Source: a virus | Length of the DNA stretch: 36,347 nucleotides | Direction: 5' to 3' (one strand) | Virus record (IMG/VR): IMGVR_UViG_3300043410_000078 | Span: 1-36,347 of that record | In this document: piece after piece, positions 3,403 through 13,980 of the stretch | How the letters are laid out: each line of letters begins with the position of its first letter | Position numbering within the stretch: position 1 is the stretch's first letter | The notes under the pieces: generated by a model | What the model saw: the letters and a program-made list of their open reading frames with translations, nothing else | The model's database searches: none | What the model was told of the DNA's origin: nothing | Translations under genes and position numbers: made by a program

Positions 3403-4075
3403 ACTGTGGACGGTTTTGCTCAATCCACGGACGTGCTTGAGCGTTGAGTTTCTCCACGTCAGAGCCAACTGTCTGGCTTCCAACGTGGTGGACATAAGAA
3501 GTTGAGACGTAATGTGAGTACCCTTTGGCTGACATATCCAAGCAGGAAACATCATCCGAATACCAGTTCAATGGTCCAAAACGACCATGATTCCAAGCAT
3601 CACGCGAGACATACGCGAAGATTGGAGCAATCACATCAGTTGGGAAAATGTAGTCTTCAGACGCAAACCGATTCATGTAAATCGGGTCTGACTCTCGGTT
3701 GAACCGAATGTTCTGTGGACAGCGCACCGAGTCGCTACGCGCAGCAACCCAACCAACTGATGGCTCCAATGAACGAATCGTGTCCACGTCATCCAGCAAT
3801 TTGGAATAACTGGTGGGGGTCAGTACAACATCGTCATTGCAGACGATACAAGCTGTGTGGTACTTCAAAGCATCGTCAATGATGTCGTTGTAGTCCTCAC
3901 CAAAGTTACGCGCCTCGCCCACCATGATGCGGACATTGGACAAGTTCTCCATCTTGCTAATTACGGACTCTGGACCGCGAAGATAGACAAACGCTTCTGG
4001 CGCGTATTGCTTAATGCTTTCTAACAGTACAGGCAACCCCTTGCCGTGTACTGTGGAGATGCAAATCGGAATCAC
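3377..4075 (-). CDS. Glycosyltransferase (GT-A / family 2-like)
   Basis: Encodes 232 residues. The start is GTG at 4075, overlapping the previous stop as GTGA, which suggests translational coupling. The N-terminus (PICISTVHGKGLPVLLESI) resembles the nucleotide-binding beginning of GT-A enzymes. CIVCNDDVVLTP around residues 76-87 supplies a DXD-like acidic pair for metal and UDP/GDP-sugar binding. No membrane segment is seen, so it is probably cytosolic. It lies between terminase-linked genes and the portal, next to a methyltransferase. The acceptor could be a virion protein, modified DNA or a host glycan. Nothing in the sequence decides this. Confidence 0.78.
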   Translation of the reverse strand: MIPICISTVHGKGLPVLLESIKQYAPEAFVYLRGPESVISKMENLSNVRIMVGEARNFGEDYNDIIDDALKYHTACIVCNDDVVLTPTSYSKLLDDVDTIRSLEPSVGWVAARSDSVRCPQNIRFNRESDPIYMNRFASEDYIFPTDVIAPIFAYVSRDAWNHGRFGPLNWYSDDVSCLDMSAKGYSHYVSTSYVHHVGSQTVGSDVEKLNAQARPWIEQNRPQYVEQFFGS

Positions 4076-4539: not shown

Positions 4540-6033
4540 TTATGCAACCCGAGACACGTTCCTGCGCAGTGGCTTTGACCACTGTTGCGAAGTATTCGCA
4601 CCAAACATCCCAATGGCTGCATCAGATGCGAACGTCAAAACAAAGCTGTCAGCCTTGTCAGGTGACTTCAGACCGCGCTTACGGATGTCATCCTTGGACT
4701 CAATCTGAATCTTTCCATTGGACGTGAAGAAATAACGCACTGTAGCCAACTCAGCTACAAGTTCTTCATCCAAAGGAATTCGACAATCTCGCGCCTCGAA
4801 CCACGCTTTAGTCTTGTACCAAAGTTCGGCGCGTAAGTTTTTGTAAGTCGTACCCATTGCAGGGGACTCTGACACGTTGATGCCGCGGACAGGCAAACCC
4901 AACTCACGCAGTCGGTCAACCACGCCAGCGCCCAAGCCAATCGAGTCCACCAAGATTTCATGGGGACGCTGACTAGGAGTCAACGCTTCCCACTCAGCGA
5001 CAACAGCGCCAGTGAGTTGCATTAAGTCCAAGTTCTTCCATGTCTTCGTGGGTTCAATCAGAGCATTACCCTGACGCTTTGACAAGGCAGAACGGTCACC
5101 ACCAAAACGTGCAACGTCCAAACCCCATATCAACTTGGCGTGTTGAGAAGTCTCAACATCACGATGTTTAGCCAACTCAAGCAATTCCATTGGAATGATC
5201 GTGTCGTCGTCACTTCTTGGGAATTCACCAAGGACGCGAATCCGATAAGCGTTGGATTCCTCGCCATACCGAGCCTTCATCTCCTCAACGTAGGCTTCTG
5301 ATACCCGTGGAGAGTCCACGCATGACACCTTCATCGTCACCCAATCATTGGCAAGACGGTTGTGCGTGTCGTAAAAGAAGCCAGAAGAACGGACAGGGTT
5401 ACCAAGCAGGATGGTCACAGCGTTGTGTCCAGACATAGAGCCAGCAGCAGCTTCAAATACCTGTTCAGGAATACCAGACGCTTCGTCACCAATAAGCATG
5501 ACGTTCTCAGAGTGGACACCCTGCAACGCTTCAGGCTGCTCGGCTCGGCTTGTCCTTGCGGATACGAAGGCTTCAGTCTGTGCTTCTTTGACCTCGATAC
5601 GGTCCTGCTTGACTTCAAGCATATCGCGAAGTGTCTGCGGTAACTCCTTGACCCAACGCTTTAATTCCGCGAAAAGAGCGTCATACAACTGGCTGGACGT
5701 GGGGGCTGTCACCACCACCTTGACGGGGTAACGTAAAAGCAAATACCAGATGATTGCCCAACTTGCTCCTGTTGACTTTCCGACTCCATGACCAGATCGG
5801 ACAGAGATTCGTCGCTCACCTTTGGCGATGTGGTTGAGCATCGTCTCTTGCCACGGGTCAGGGGAAGTGTTCAAGACTTCCTTGACAAACAACACAGGGT
5901 TGTTCTTGTATCTTGCCGTGAAAGCAATGAATGGGTTGTTCTTGATCTTCTCGTCTAGCTTCTTGGCAGCGTTGTCCACCAACTCTTGTGTATCAACGTG
6001 CAGTTTCTTTTTTGGTGTTGATTCTTTAGTCAT
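4540..6033 (-). CDS. terL: Terminase large subunit
   Basis: Encodes 497 residues, full length for the family. It is the ATP-driven motor and nuclease that cuts concatemers and fills the procapsid. Residues 81-88 (GHGVGKST) are the Walker A loop. VMLIGDE (178-184) is Walker B with its catalytic Glu, and TILLGNP (208-213) fits the coupling motif. The RNase H-like nuclease domain has acidic residues in GLDVARFGGD (Asp306), ILVDSIGLGAG (Asp363) and SPDKADSF (Asp459/Asp462). The ATG start at 6033 lies just after a 21-base repeat containing a dyad. The small subunit is encoded upstream at 6977-7411. Confidence 0.96.
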   Translation of the reverse strand: MTKESTPKKKLHVDTQELVDNAAKKLDEKIKNNPFIAFTARYKNNPVLFVKEVLNTSPDPWQETMLNHIAKGERRISVRSGHGVGKSTGASWAIIWYLLLRYPVKVVVTAPTSSQLYDALFAELKRWVKELPQTLRDMLEVKQDRIEVKEAQTEAFVSARTSRAEQPEALQGVHSENVMLIGDEASGIPEQVFEAAAGSMSGHNAVTILLGNPVRSSGFFYDTHNRLANDWVTMKVSCVDSPRVSEAYVEEMKARYGEESNAYRIRVLGEFPRSDDDTIIPMELLELAKHRDVETSQHAKLIWGLDVARFGGDRSALSKRQGNALIEPTKTWKNLDLMQLTGAVVAEWEALTPSQRPHEILVDSIGLGAGVVDRLRELGLPVRGINVSESPAMGTTYKNLRAELWYKTKAWFEARDCRIPLDEELVAELATVRYFFTSNGKIQIESKDDIRKRGLKSPDKADSFVLTFASDAAIGMFGANTSQQWSKPLRRNVSRVA

Positions 6034-6060: not shown

Positions 6061-6450
6061 TTAGTCAGCCATGACGTAATCTTTGCGCTCCCACGCTTTG
6101 CAAGTACGCAGGTTGTGGCAAATGAACTCAAACTTATGGCAATAGCCACGACCACCACCATCAGCATCAAAGCGATCTTGAGGGATTGACTCCATCTCTG
6201 CCAACATCTCAGGAGTATTGTCAAAGTATTCGCAGTTGGCGCATAGCTGTCGGCGAGCTTGAGATGGTGGAACTTTCCACTCTTTAGCGATGGCGCTCCA
6301 GTAAACAGCGTTTGTTCCGCTGGTCTTATCAGGACCAAGCATCTGAGTTCTCACCAAGGTGTCACGCATCTTGGCGTTGGTAGTAGCCGTCAAACCATTG
6401 ATGTCAGCCTCTTTAGGCTCGCCACTCATCTCAATATCTAGGAGTCCCAT
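6061..6450 (-). CDS. Conserved cysteine-containing phage protein next to terminase
   Basis: Encodes 129 residues from ATG, with AAAGG 5 bases upstream. Residues 19-66 carry the pattern NGLTATTNAKMRDTL and YWSAIAKEWKVPPSQA. The C-terminal half has five cysteines in the arrangement CxxC, then GYCHKFEFIC and CKAWE, suggesting a metal or Fe-S site. Similar proteins sit beside terminase genes in other podoviruses, but I know of no proven function. The gene is bracketed by the two 21-base repeats at 6036-6056 and 6480-6500. Confidence 0.8.
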   Translation of the reverse strand: MGLLDIEMSGEPKEADINGLTATTNAKMRDTLVRTQMLGPDKTSGTNAVYWSAIAKEWKVPPSQARRQLCANCEYFDNTPEMLAEMESIPQDRFDADGGGRGYCHKFEFICHNLRTCKAWERKDYVMAD

Positions 6451-6558: not shown

Positions 6559-6901
6559 CACGGATGAGGATTACCACACGGATGCCAGTTTGCAACCTGC
6601 CGCGCCTCGCTCAACGAGCAATCCTCATGCGTCTTGATGTAGCGGTCAAGTGTAATCGTTTTTTAGATTTTTTAAAAAATTTTTTGGACGGTTGCTTTAA
6701 TAACAGGGGGATGGGGGTGTGGTTGTTAAAATTTTTTTTTGGATATGTGTCGGCTTGCATCTGTAGCAGCGCCCCGCCCACCACCCAACCACGGGGGGCT
6801 AAATCTGGATTCTGTGGCACGATTCTCGCTTTGCATTGCAATCTGAATACTTTTGCACTCAGCTACTTTATACAACGTCCATTATGTAAAGTTATTTTTC
6901 A

Positions 6902-6967
6902 GTTATGCACAGGTCATACATACGTTTTGTTGCTTTGCTGCAACAAATCGCGTGACCTGTGGATAAC
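6902..6967. promoter_or_regulatory. Nested inverted repeat with two DnaA-box matches (candidate origin element)
   Basis: GTTATGCACAGGTCA at 6902-6916 pairs with the complement of 6953-6967, with one mismatch in 15. Each arm carries a DnaA-box match: TTATGCACA at 6903-6911 and TTATCCACA on the other strand at 6958-6966. Between them TTTGTTGC and GCAACAAA form a second stem. An AT-rich tract lies about 220 bases to the left. This arrangement fits host DnaA-assisted initiation. Confidence 0.55.
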
Positions 6968-6976
6968 TTGAACAAC

Positions 6977-7411
6977 TTACGTCAGTTTGTCTGTGGGTAA
7001 CTCAGCCTCGATGAACTCCCCATGTCGCAGCGCATCGAGCCGCAAATTAGCCAGATTGACCGTAACGCTCGGCATTTTGTTCTGCGCATACGCTGCTGGA
7101 TTCCATCTTTCAGCCACCCACTGCCGCGTTTGGACGCGTAAACGAGCCTTATTTACTTCACTTATGTCTGTTTCGTCAGCAATTTCTATCGTTTCCGACA
7201 CCAAATGGTCAGCCGCTCGTGCGCGCGCGTGCGTGAGGAAGGATTCCTGTTCTGGCTTGTCCAGCCATTCATGCAACGCTCGCTTGCTAACGCCAAGCTG
7301 CATACAGATGCGAGCCTCGGACATACCAGCTTCGAACATTGTTCTGAGTTGATCTTTCGGCAATGTGTCCAACAAAGCCATGTCGTGATGCTTCTTTTTA
7401 TTTCCAGCCAT
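6977..7411 (-). CDS. terS: Terminase small subunit
   Basis: Encodes 144 residues. The N-terminal half has a helix-turn-helix (FEAGMSEARICMQLGVSKRALHEWL, about residues 27-51) of the kind found in Sf6-like small terminases. A helical middle section (RARAADHLVSETIEIADE) fits the oligomerisation core, and a short C-terminal tail could touch the large subunit. The protein binds the packaging site and loads TerL. ATG at 7411 follows a GGAGAG ribosome site. The noncoding region with palindromes and DnaA boxes begins just after the stop, and terL follows one gene later. Confidence 0.87.
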   Translation of the reverse strand: MAGNKKKHHDMALLDTLPKDQLRTMFEAGMSEARICMQLGVSKRALHEWLDKPEQESFLTHARARAADHLVSETIEIADETDISEVNKARLRVQTRQWVAERWNPAAYAQNKMPSVTVNLANLRLDALRHGEFIEAELPTDKLT

Positions 7412-7479: not shown

Positions 7480-8157
7480 TTAAAGTGCCTTCTGACTCGT
7501 TTTAGAGCCATACACAGTCGTGTCGAACACTTTAGCCATACGCGAACCGTTCAAAACACCATCATCTGATGGCATATCCTCTAAACCAGTTGCTCCACCA
7601 TCAGGAAACTTATTGGCTGGCTTGTCAAGCCTAACCATCTGCGCTTGAGGATATTGACGCTTCAGAGCCATAGTTTCCTTGACCACTTCAGCGTTCATCA
7701 CCAACTCTAGTTCTTCCATGCACCAGATGTGTCTGCGCGTATCAGGACCAGCAAACTGGTCAAAGTGCAGCGCATCCTCGTAAGTCTCAACCACGACCAT
7801 GATTGAGCCATCCTTCATCTCATACTGGCAGTTCTTAACCTCGGGCACCTGTTTAACACCAGTTGTAACAGCCCACTGCTCCAGTGCTGCATAAGCCTTC
7901 TTCATGCCTTCCACTGCCTTTGTCAGCCTAACCTCATCTCGCATCTTCTGTGCAGCGTAGATTCTTTCCGATTGAGTCCAGAACTTGACGCGGAACTCCT
8001 CATCCACCAAACCAATCAACCGACTGATACCCCACTTGCGTTCATGCGCTTGTTGAACGTTAAGAAGTTCAATCAACTTGCTTCGCATGAACAACTCAAA
8101 CGGGTCCGCTGGAATACTTGGTTGCTCAACCTTCTTTTTTATCTGCCTTGTTGCCAC
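7480..8157 (-). CDS. Unrecognised phage protein, replication module
   Basis: Encodes 225 residues from GTG, supported by AAGGAGAG 5-7 bases upstream. It has no signal peptide or membrane segment. Residues 35-100 are helical and basic (ERKWGISRLIGLVDEEFRVKFW, RIYAAQKMRDEVRL). The central part (YEMKDGSIMVVVETYEDALHF) looks like a beta region. The C-terminus is loop-rich. I do not recognise a family. It lies between the primase-helicase and terS, directly downstream of a repeat-rich noncoding stretch (8158-8324) that may control it. Confidence 0.75.
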   Translation of the reverse strand: MATRQIKKKVEQPSIPADPFELFMRSKLIELLNVQQAHERKWGISRLIGLVDEEFRVKFWTQSERIYAAQKMRDEVRLTKAVEGMKKAYAALEQWAVTTGVKQVPEVKNCQYEMKDGSIMVVVETYEDALHFDQFAGPDTRRHIWCMEELELVMNAEVVKETMALKRQYPQAQMVRLDKPANKFPDGGATGLEDMPSDDGVLNGSRMAKVFDTTVYGSKTSQKAL

Positions 8158-8324: not shown

Positions 8325-10355
8325 TCACTTACTAAACGGTACGACAACACTTGAACCGTCCCCGTCAGCATAAATTGCCCAGACCCAATCCTTATGGATT
8401 TCGATCTTTTCAAGGTCAGTTAGCGTCATCTTTACCCTCGCCCATGCTTTGTTGAATGTCGCTGGCTCCACATCGCTGCCAAGTTTTGCCTTGAATTCTT
8501 CTCTCCACTGGTCCAACTTGATGGCTTTGTTGCGCTTGCCATCAATGTTTTCCATCATTCCGAACTTCTTGATGGCTGAGTGCAACGCTGTCAGCGCCAG
8601 CCTTTGGTTGTGTCCAGAGCCTGATCTATCTGGTGGTGGAGATGCGTTAGGACGCTCAACGTTCAATTCATTGTCAACTTCCACCGCCAAACTGCTTACC
8701 GTGTCGAACCCCAAAAGTGTTGTGGATAACTCCACCGTAATCATTTGAAAACCGTACCTTTGACCGTCCTCACCGTCCTTCTGCTTGCTGATGTGCAGGA
8801 TTCCTTTTGGCGCGTCCTCGATTCTTATGATCTCCAGTTCCGTGTCAACGGCTCCAAGTAAGCTGCTGTGACCACGCAATCCTTTGGTGGCATCCTTACC
8901 AGCGTGATGGACGACTAGAAGTGCGCAGTTGTATCGTCCTTGGATTGCGCCAGCCGCTGTGATGAAGGCTCCCATGTCCTCGCTTGCGTTCTCATTGCCA
9001 CCACCAAACGCTCTGGCTAGTGTGTCGATGACCACCAGTTCAAACTGGATTTCATGCGTTGCTTGGATGTCATCCACGGCTTGGATTAAGTCTTGGATGT
9101 CGGTTGCTGACGAGCGTAGGTTGATCTGTTTTCTGAGGAAGAACACTGGCGCACCTAATGGCGTGTTGTGATGCTTCTTCATGGCTTTGATACGCGCACC
9201 GATACCACCGTGACCTTCACCAGCAATGTAAAGCACTGCACCTTGATGCTTGACTTCTTTAGTCAGGAATTCTCGTCCTGTTGCAATGCACTCCGCAATA
9301 TCCAATGCCACGAATGACTTGAATGACGCTGGTGGCGCGTACAAGGCAACAAATGCTTTCTTTGGAATCACGCCTTCGATTAGCCATTCCACAGGCTCGT
9401 CGTCAATGTCGTCCAACTGCTCAATCTTGAATGGTTGTCTTTGTATACTTAAATTCGTTGATTGGATACTTAACTCTGGCTGCTCTGTATCTTTTTTCTC
9501 TGCTTCAACGAACCTATCAGGTATCGTTACATCATCCTCTGATGTGATCTTGTCCGTGTTCTTGGTCAACGCCGCCAAGTCCTGCTTGTCATAGCCGTAC
9601 CTGTTCACATACTCATACGCATCTTCCTTGATGTAATCCAGCGGTAGGTCCACGACTCGGATGGAGTTGGTGACGTTCTTGAGTGCCTTTACTGCCTTCT
9701 TCGCGTACTCCCAACCAACCTTGTCGTTGTCAGGCAGGATTACCACGTTCAGACCAGCAAAATACTGGATTGCGTCTTCAGGAAAGCTGCTGGCTCCTTG
9801 ATGCGTACAGGTAGCGACGACACCAATGGTTTTGAGCGCGTCCGCTGCCTTCTCGCCTTCCGTCAGGAATACGGTTCTGTTGTTTGCTCTGGCTGCTTCC
9901 ACCTCTGGCAAGTTGTACGGGACGATCTTTGCGCCAGTGATGGACATATGGCGCTTGCCATTCTCGTCCACCCTGATTTGCTTGTACGTCTTTCCCTTTG
10001 AGTCGTTGGTCTTGTAACGCTGCTTAATGAAAAGCGTCACACCGTCCTCATCCGTATAGTGCCACTCATGTTCCAGAGTTGGCGCTTCAAATGGCTTGAT
10101 GCTGGCTAAGAGTTCAGCGCGTGGCTCCAAGTCTGGCAAGAGTCCGTAGTCCTTAACAGCGTTGAACACGTCATGCTGCTCACACCCGCCGTGGCACTTG
10201 AACAGCGGTTTGCCATCAGGTCCATCAGTGATTGAAAGGCTTGGATTCCTGTCACCGTTTCCTTGCCCGTGAGTTGGCAACGGGCAACTCGCCAGCCAAC
10301 TTCCGTTGACCTTCTTCGCGTTGCCTAGCGCCTTTGCTATTTGTTCGGCTTGCAT
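8325..10355 (-). CDS. Primase-helicase (zinc-binding, Toprim and RecA-like ATPase)
   Basis: Encodes 676 residues. A zinc site is formed by Cys24, His29, Cys54 and Cys58 (CPLPTH, FKCHGGC), as in phage primases. The Toprim domain shows TEGEKAAD (Glu166) and LPDNDK (Asp209, Asp211). A RecA-like ATPase follows, with APPASFKSF as Walker A (Lys346), VVIDT as Walker B (Asp444) and a conserved VVHH (481-484), as in RepA/AAA_25 helicases. The C-terminal part resembles a DNA-binding tail. It should unwind DNA and lay primers at the fork for a host polymerase, since no phage polymerase is seen. Its ATG directly follows the stop of a 37-codon gene. Confidence 0.9.
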   Translation of the reverse strand: MQAEQIAKALGNAKKVNGSWLASCPLPTHGQGNGDRNPSLSITDGPDGKPLFKCHGGCEQHDVFNAVKDYGLLPDLEPRAELLASIKPFEAPTLEHEWHYTDEDGVTLFIKQRYKTNDSKGKTYKQIRVDENGKRHMSITGAKIVPYNLPEVEAARANNRTVFLTEGEKAADALKTIGVVATCTHQGASSFPEDAIQYFAGLNVVILPDNDKVGWEYAKKAVKALKNVTNSIRVVDLPLDYIKEDAYEYVNRYGYDKQDLAALTKNTDKITSEDDVTIPDRFVEAEKKDTEQPELSIQSTNLSIQRQPFKIEQLDDIDDEPVEWLIEGVIPKKAFVALYAPPASFKSFVALDIAECIATGREFLTKEVKHQGAVLYIAGEGHGGIGARIKAMKKHHNTPLGAPVFFLRKQINLRSSATDIQDLIQAVDDIQATHEIQFELVVIDTLARAFGGGNENASEDMGAFITAAGAIQGRYNCALLVVHHAGKDATKGLRGHSSLLGAVDTELEIIRIEDAPKGILHISKQKDGEDGQRYGFQMITVELSTTLLGFDTVSSLAVEVDNELNVERPNASPPPDRSGSGHNQRLALTALHSAIKKFGMMENIDGKRNKAIKLDQWREEFKAKLGSDVEPATFNKAWARVKMTLTDLEKIEIHKDWVWAIYADGDGSSVVVPFSK

Positions 10356-13298: not shown

Positions 13299-13762
13299 AA
13301 CTTGCTCCCGTAGTAAGCCATCATGGTTGCGTCTGCTCTGCCTGAATCCTTGACACGAGCAAACTGTTGTTGGTGATCTGGATGTAGTTCCATGCAGCGA
13401 TGACGGATTGCGTCCTTACCTTTACCGCATTGCGTTGCCTTCATCCATGCTTGTGGTGTAACGAATGTGATTGGCACTGACAGCGCAGACAGAGCACCTT
13501 CAATCAAGCCAGCAGCACGACCAAACGCAAACATTGATGTCACGCCTTGATTTGGCATTGCGCCAACCTTCTCAACGATTGCGTGAGTTGGATTTAACTC
13601 CTTGATGGCAGCAGCCACGCCTTGTGCAGAGATGTGGTTCTTCTTCTTGCCGCCGCGAATGACCTCAACGCAAGGCATATCAATGATGCGCTCAAACTTA
13701 CCGTCAACGTACAGCGAGAACGCTCCTTGAGCGCCAATGTCAACACCCATGACGCGAATCAT
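13295..13762 (-). CDS. RuvC-like Holliday junction resolvase
   Basis: Encodes 155 residues, the usual length. MGVDIGAQGAF holds the first catalytic Asp (Asp8) on the first strand of the RNase H fold. HAIVEKVGAMPNQG supplies Glu64, and SMFAFGRAAGLIEGAL is the helix after it, as in RuvC. VTPQAWMK precedes the C-terminal acidic pair in KDSGRADA (Asp139, Asp144). The enzyme should cut four-way junctions and branched concatemers before packaging. It follows the XRE regulator by a four-base overlap and heads the leftward replication genes. Confidence 0.88.
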   Translation of the reverse strand: MIRVMGVDIGAQGAFSLYVDGKFERIIDMPCVEVIRGGKKKNHISAQGVAAAIKELNPTHAIVEKVGAMPNQGVTSMFAFGRAAGLIEGALSALSVPITFVTPQAWMKATQCGKGKDAIRHRCMELHPDHQQQFARVKDSGRADATMMAYYGSKL

Positions 13763-13980
13763 GCTGAGTCTTTCGTCAGTTCGCTGATGCGAGTTGTGAT
13801 GAGCCTGTCCAGTGCTTGCTTCAACTTGTCCACGGATGACACCAATGGAACTGTTTTGCCTGAAATCCAGCGAGAGACTTGGGCTTGGTCCAATCCTGCC
13901 TCTCGGCTGACCTCTGCCATATTGAAGCCAGCAGACTCTGCTCGCTTTTTGATGTCTGTGATGTATGTAGATGTGTTCAT
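13759..13980 (-). CDS. XRE/Cro-type DNA-binding regulator
   Basis: Encodes 73 residues and is almost entirely a lambda-Cro/cI-type helix-turn-helix: GFNMAEVSREAGLDQAQVSRWISGKTVPL, residues 18-46. There is no C-terminal dimerisation or cleavage domain, so it is Cro-like rather than cI-like. It is the first gene of the leftward unit and faces the divergent control region, where two palindromes (13988-13997 and 14006-14021) are the obvious candidate operators. It probably represses its own unit, the rightward unit, or both. Confidence 0.86.
   Translation of the reverse strand: MNTSTYITDIKKRAESAGFNMAEVSREAGLDQAQVSRWISGKTVPLVSSVDKLKQALDRLITTRISELTKDSA

Follow-up and report, generated by a model that had tools for sequence, protein, structure and literature searches.

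Sites of Xer recombination comprise an 11-bp XerC arm, a centre of 6–8 bp and an 11-bp XerD arm, the arms being similar to those of the host dif. In the plasmid sites psi (pSC101) and cer (ColE1), which are 28–30 bp long, require host XerCD and have a centre unlike that of dif, an accessory sequence of approx. 200 bp lies next to the XerC arm and binds ArgR or ArcA with PepA. Plasmid Xer accessory sequences are located on the XerC side (PMC11724359). Phage P1 carries loxP 4 kb from pac, beyond pacA and pacB, in an arrangement that places the site in the terminal redundancy of packaged DNA, and encodes its own recombinase, Cre. A dif-like attP is found in phages of the IMEX type (CTXphi, VGJphi, TLCphi; NO16, Jorvik and gokushoviruses), which have no integrase and insert into the chromosome at dif or elsewhere; the published cases that were found belong to filamentous, microvirus or tailless phages, and it is mainly in these, as integration sites, that dif-like sites have previously been described. 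In Burkholderiales, the chromosomal dif of the Rhodoferax type has the centre TGTATA and lies at the chromosome terminus. Finally, DnaA-dependent origins of plasmids and phages combine several consensus DnaA boxes with a nearby AT-rich tract.

The window, by which we mean the whole stretch of 36,347 nucleotides analysed here (IMG/VR record IMGVR_UViG_3300043410_000078, positions 1 to 36,347), resembles several of these systems in part. Like psi and cer, it carries a 28-bp Xer site with a centre distinct from that of dif; however, it belongs to a tailed-phage setting, with terminase genes and DnaA boxes as neighbours, and the boxes lie on the XerD side instead of the XerC side. As in P1, the recombination site lies within a few kb of the terminase genes, but no tyrosine recombinase was found (PF00589 was detected in none of 14 records, with control genomes positive), so the host, unlike that of P1, would have to supply one. 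The IMEX phages likewise combine a dif-like site with the absence of an integrase, whereas the family of the window is tailed and no integrated copies of it were seen. Both arms are identical to arms of individual Burkholderiales chromosomal sites, yet the centre is CGTCCA and the site is on a phage genome. As in DnaA-dependent origins, several consensus boxes accompany an AT-rich tract, although no initiator gene or iterons were identified beside them.

An earlier note, made from the sequence of the window, had placed a candidate replication origin at 6660–6967. That origin is plausible, although a module of origin plus Xer site describes the region better. The 28-bp site lies within this very range and yet had gone unnoticed. 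With moderate confidence, we interpret the intergenic DNA that separates terS from the small gene preceding terL as a composite cis-acting maintenance module, in which an origin used by host DnaA would be joined to a resolution site like psi and cer or a cyclization site like lox. Its features and the neighbouring genes are as follows.

4540–6033, minus strand: terminase large subunit gene terL (phrog_2, 3e-44), with its start codon 846 nt from the Xer site
6061–6450, minus strand: small conserved gene between the module and terL, with homologues in 63 of 164 loci from later scans
6646–6705, no strand: AT-rich tract with a 14-nt palindrome, a candidate unwinding element by its AT content
6793–6798, plus strand: G run on the XerC side of the Xer site, read from the sequence
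6865–6892, plus strand: Xer site (xrs/dif-like) of 28 bp, found with dif PSSMs and conserved in relatives
6865–6875, plus strand: XerC-type arm of the Xer site, ACTTTATACAA
6876–6881, plus strand: centre of the Xer site, CGTCCA
6882–6892, plus strand: XerD-type arm of the Xer site, TTATGTAAAGT, ending 10 nt before the first DnaA box
6901–6968, no strand: inverted repeat with 16-nt arms and an inner stem, a hairpin that is not kept in a more distant clade
6903–6911, plus strand: exact DnaA box TTATGCACA, starting 10 nt past the XerD arm
6958–6966, minus strand: exact and conserved DnaA box TTATCCACA, facing the first
6977–7411, minus strand: Sf6-type terminase small subunit gene terS (PF20901, 6e-15; phrog_1482)
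6992–7000, minus strand: weaker box TTACCCACA, located within terS at its 3' end; the alignment shows good conservation of the corresponding stretch
8325–10355, minus strand: primase-helicase gene with an AAA_25 domain, by family match

The 28-mer is very probably a Xer site, judging from its layout and its similarity to known dif sequences. A PSSM built from 47 published proteobacterial dif sites (PMC2731167) placed it at the top of the whole window with 17.6 bits, compared with shuffle maxima that averaged 8.7 and reached 13.8 at most. The same matrix ranked the element first in the window and in all 34 of 34 family loci, in either orientation, the reverse match in some loci being due to the near-palindromic nature of the site, while nothing strong was found in the control phage phiM5. 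The arms follow the 11-6-11 arrangement and are like those of host dif. In the alignment of relatives, it is this site, not the boxes or the hairpin, that is the most conserved element of the region: a nearly invariant block, AACTTTACATAATG, lies about 10 nt from the boxes and reads on the opposite strand as the XerD half of a dif-type site. The XerC half is more variable than the XerD arm, as it is in dif (PMC2731167), and in some clades it is weak (-2.5 in locus L142, scored with the host-family matrix described below). A sigma-70 promoter within the 28-mer was also considered and rejected, as a mere 12 nt separates the candidate hexamers and promoter prediction made no call there.

Searching 200 Burkholderiales genomes with the Rhodoferax-type dif pattern gave two matches, and the search was then narrowed to the family of one of them. 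In 61 of 121 genomes of this family, the site ATACGA-TGTATA-TTATGT was present with at most two mismatches, as a single copy in 59 of the 61. The dif type of the family is that published for Rhodoferax ferrireducens, from which we infer that the matching host family is Comamonadaceae. With a host-family PSSM derived from 40 of the 61 sites, the Xer site of the window scored 26.6 and the next unrelated place -0.8. Its XerC arm ACTTTATACAA is identical to that of host site L291 and its XerD arm TTATGTAAAGT to that of L289. Two genomes of the family, G235 and G272, each contain a second dif-like copy (ATACGATGTATATTAAGTTAA and ATACGATATATCTTATGTAAA), possibly on mobile elements. Separately, four viral contigs (L598, L599, L609 and L610) carry dif with the host centre TGTATA and without boxes, and may represent proviruses at dif or host flanks.

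The centres of the phage and host sites differ. TGTATA was found in 38 of 40 host sites and in 3 of 249 phage sites, in which TGTCCA (61/249), TGTTCA (36/249), CGACCA, TGACCA, CGTCCA and CATTCA were common; these counts are biased, because one scan pattern fixed TGTCCA and another the last bases of the centre. In pSC101, psi has the sequence GGTGCGCGCAA-GATCCA-TTATGTTAAAC, and thus has TCCA in common with the centre of the window. Xer exchange requires homology at the exchanged bases (PMC4246890), and CGTCCA departs from the dif centre both in the XerD half and at the first base on the XerC side. This mismatch speaks for recombination of phage copies with each other and against recombination with dif.

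The structural part of the origin proposal was confirmed. The inverted repeat has arms AGTTATGCACAGGTCA (6901–6916) and TGACCTGTGGATAACT (6953–6968), which are 16 nt long (15 had been given), contain one mismatch and are separated by 36 nt; no other inverted repeat in the 36-kb window has arms of 15 nt or more with no more than one mismatch and a loop not exceeding 80 nt. The two facing boxes, TTATGCACA and TTATCCACA, are exact, the second stem was found inside the repeat (6923–6933/6940–6950), and the perfect 14-nt AT palindrome, ATTTTTTAAAAAAT, is at 6667–6680, 221 nt from the inverted repeat. The 60-mer starting at 6646 belongs to a stretch that ranks among the top two of the genome in AT content. 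Two copies of TTATNCACA within 60 nt of each other did not occur in any of 300 Markov shuffles of the window, whereas one-mismatch DnaA boxes are not enriched across it (30 found, 38 expected); among the DnaA boxes of the window, only the local pair stands out.

To follow the arrangement in relatives, 80 were gathered via terS and 80 via terL. Downstream of terS, nearly all have several boxes or near variants, and conservation of the boxes extends from the terS relatives to nearly all of the more distant TerL clades examined. In the neighbourhoods of 85 distinct relatives, the density of TTATNCACA within 200 nt of this place was 135 times that in the rest of the same loci, and 143 of 174 copies were TTATCCACA. 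In the supergroup of the window, two boxes face each other around the inner stem; in a more distant group, a further box stands in place of that stem, and the boxes persist in relatives even where the hairpin is lost. Compensatory change on both sides was seen in only 2 of 15 predicted pairs. What is conserved is the boxes and not the hairpin, and the inverted repeat as a unit is a feature of a sub-clade. Four outgroup phages with a related TerL (MW202879, phiM5, MW202711 and MW202496) had neither a dif-like site nor a box array in the parts covered.

The proposed origin is partly supported: a lack of box conservation in relatives, named in the note as a refuting outcome, was looked for and did not appear, but the Xer site had been overlooked. 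The suggested check by GC skew lent it no support: skew goes with the direction of the genes, and its sign flips near 14.0 and 16.5 kb instead of at 6.9 kb. A search of 12 records for a phage-coded DnaA domain IV gave none, which, together with the AT-rich tract, makes host DnaA the natural reader of the boxes. On this evidence it is fairly likely that the boxes are part of a working origin.

Scans of IMG/VR yielded 206 distinct Xer sites of the window type, with patterns that fix most of the arms and would miss other arm sequences. TerL was detectable in the loci of 163 sites, which fall into lineages A (132), B (26), C (3) and D (2), so that lineages C and D rest on few sites. TerL identity was 24% over 208 aa between A and B and 23% over 379 aa between B and D, and other pairs gave no meaningful match. 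All 163 sites were within 4.1 kb of TerL, with a median of approximately 0.8 kb in lineages A and B, although the limited length of the fetched loci favours a TerL close by. Boxes were overwhelmingly on the XerD side (615 versus 33 on the XerC side, 252 sites), and in 151 of the 252 phage sites the first TTAT box began exactly 10 nt from the XerD arm. The first lineage-B phage had the same boxes and spacing as lineage A, which suggests a shared module; as the proximity in A and B may go back to one ancestral module, the independent cases may be only three. Lineages C and D have the Xer site without boxes, and in lineage C it adjoins a gene for an O-like replication protein. Methylophilales phage MEP301, whose relationship is to TerL lineage C, has at 3995 an arm like that of XerC, which was rejected because the XerD arm was poor. 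In 164 of 249 phage sites, the 300 nt flanking the XerC arm contain a run of five or more G or C, compared with 18% of random 300-nt stretches.

The genome maps as a circle: the ends of the window overlap by 194 bp with 192 identities, and 9 of 10 near-complete relatives also have overlapping contig ends. Family matches bore out the primase-helicase claimed previously; the putative SSB gene and the gene at 6061–6450 gave none. A small HTH_3 repressor-like gene (13759–13980 and 14228) is located at a divergent gene boundary, where GC skew also flips sign. Next to terS, a gene on the minus strand (7480–8157) encodes a 225-aa protein that is conserved at this position in the family of the window and in part of lineage B. 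It had no family match and no fold match in PDB, and is a candidate replication or packaging factor; as an initiator it was rejected (AlphaFold pLDDT of 67, which is middling, and no PDB match at E ≤ 0.001). That neither a tyrosine integrase nor a phage DnaA domain IV was found in the records searched, nor any prophage, and that the phage has a primase-helicase and an HTH_3 gene, fits, without proving it, an episomal or virulent circular replicon that would use host DnaA and XerCD.

The Xer site could serve integration instead of maintenance. As an attP, it would allow XerC and XerD to insert the phage at the host dif, as filamentous IMEX phages, gokushoviruses and NO16- or Jorvik-like phages do or are thought to do. 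A phage with no integrase but with an HTH_3 repressor-like gene and dif-like arms fitted to its host would suit such a life cycle, many phage centres begin with TGT like that of host dif (including the two counted above), and XerC-first integration needs homology only next to the XerC site (PMC4246890). The centre of the window and three others (CGACCA, CATTCA and CGTTCA) nevertheless mismatch dif at precisely the first XerC-proximal base, and the Xer site lies uninterrupted between phage genes in the family loci. Among 301 genomes of the matching family, no TerL relative exceeded 35% identity and matches of 34–35% occurred in only three; a TerL-alignment search of genome contigs, at its sensitivity, found no relative either, so that neither set yielded integrated copies at host dif with attL and attR. 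TerL matches in plasmid records were all below 60% identity, with 37% at most among the ten listed. Integration therefore seems unlikely, and dimer resolution or cyclization would be the likely role of the site.

Other readings concern the boxes and the repeat. A pac site read by the small terminase subunit, with only a secondary resemblance to dif, would agree with a location directly downstream of terS and near terL, and with the proximity of the Xer site to TerL in every lineage in which TerL was found. We regard this as very improbable, because the box sequence matches the DnaA consensus (the predominance of TTATCCACA noted above), phages with unrelated terminases share these boxes and this site, and Limnohabitans phage DC31 has the boxes without a Xer site or an annotated terminase nearby. 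Were the boxes to form an origin while the 28-mer, as an operator or another kind of protein-binding site, resembled dif by chance, its near-palindromic form, as in many operators, and the presence of DnaA boxes with an AT-rich tract would be accounted for; the exact 11-6-11 layout with arms identical to chromosomal dif arms of one family, the top PSSM rank in every relative scanned and the dif-like variability of the XerC half (PMC2731167) make such a coincidence improbable. The inverted repeat folds very stably as a single strand (z = -6.9) right after the terS stop codon, as an RNA hairpin or transcription terminator might. There is, however, no T tract on either strand and thus no hairpin followed by a U tract, no terminator was called and no Rfam match was obtained here, compensatory change is rare, and the more distant clade replaces the hairpin by a further box; we give this reading hardly any credence.

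Under the preferred reading of a maintenance module, the phage probably copies and tidies its circular genome by means of host DnaA and XerC/XerD. Host DnaA would bind the array of boxes and, together with the AT-rich tract close by, would most likely help to start replication of the circle. Host XerC and XerD would bind the 28-bp site and recombine two phage copies, by which dimers or terminally redundant linear genomes may become monomeric circles, in the manner of cer and psi on plasmids and of the loxP beside pac on P1. By known Xer rules, host-like arms around a non-host 6-bp centre would favour recombination between phages over that between phage and chromosome. The position of the boxes on the XerD side, where plasmids have accessory sequences on the XerC side, counts against this reading. 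It is possible, though doubtful, that the box array is itself the Xer accessory sequence, with host DnaA, bound one helical turn from XerD, controlling XerCD recombination. If so, replication initiation of the phage circle would be coupled to its monomerization or cyclization, and the replication initiator would take the place of ArgR/ArcA/PepA or FtsK in governing a Xer system, in more than one terminase lineage of tailed phages. In the present case, dif-like sites occur in many tailed freshwater phages, beside terminase genes, often beside DnaA boxes and with a centre unlike that of the host. This suggests a route to circular monomers for phages without their own recombinase, ties phages to hosts through the type of dif arm, and makes it possible to test concretely whether uncultured phages have a plasmid life style.

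Two further loci with boxes were observed. In the cultured phage DC31 (PQ492658; L627:6234–6351), five perfect TTATCCACA boxes are present in an unannotated intergenic region, adjoining AT-rich sequence and tandem direct repeats, an arrangement resembling a DnaA/iteron origin that lacks a Xer site. Near position 2753 of locus L590, a long array of DnaA-like boxes, mostly in one direction, stands beside a dif-like site with the centre CGGGCG.
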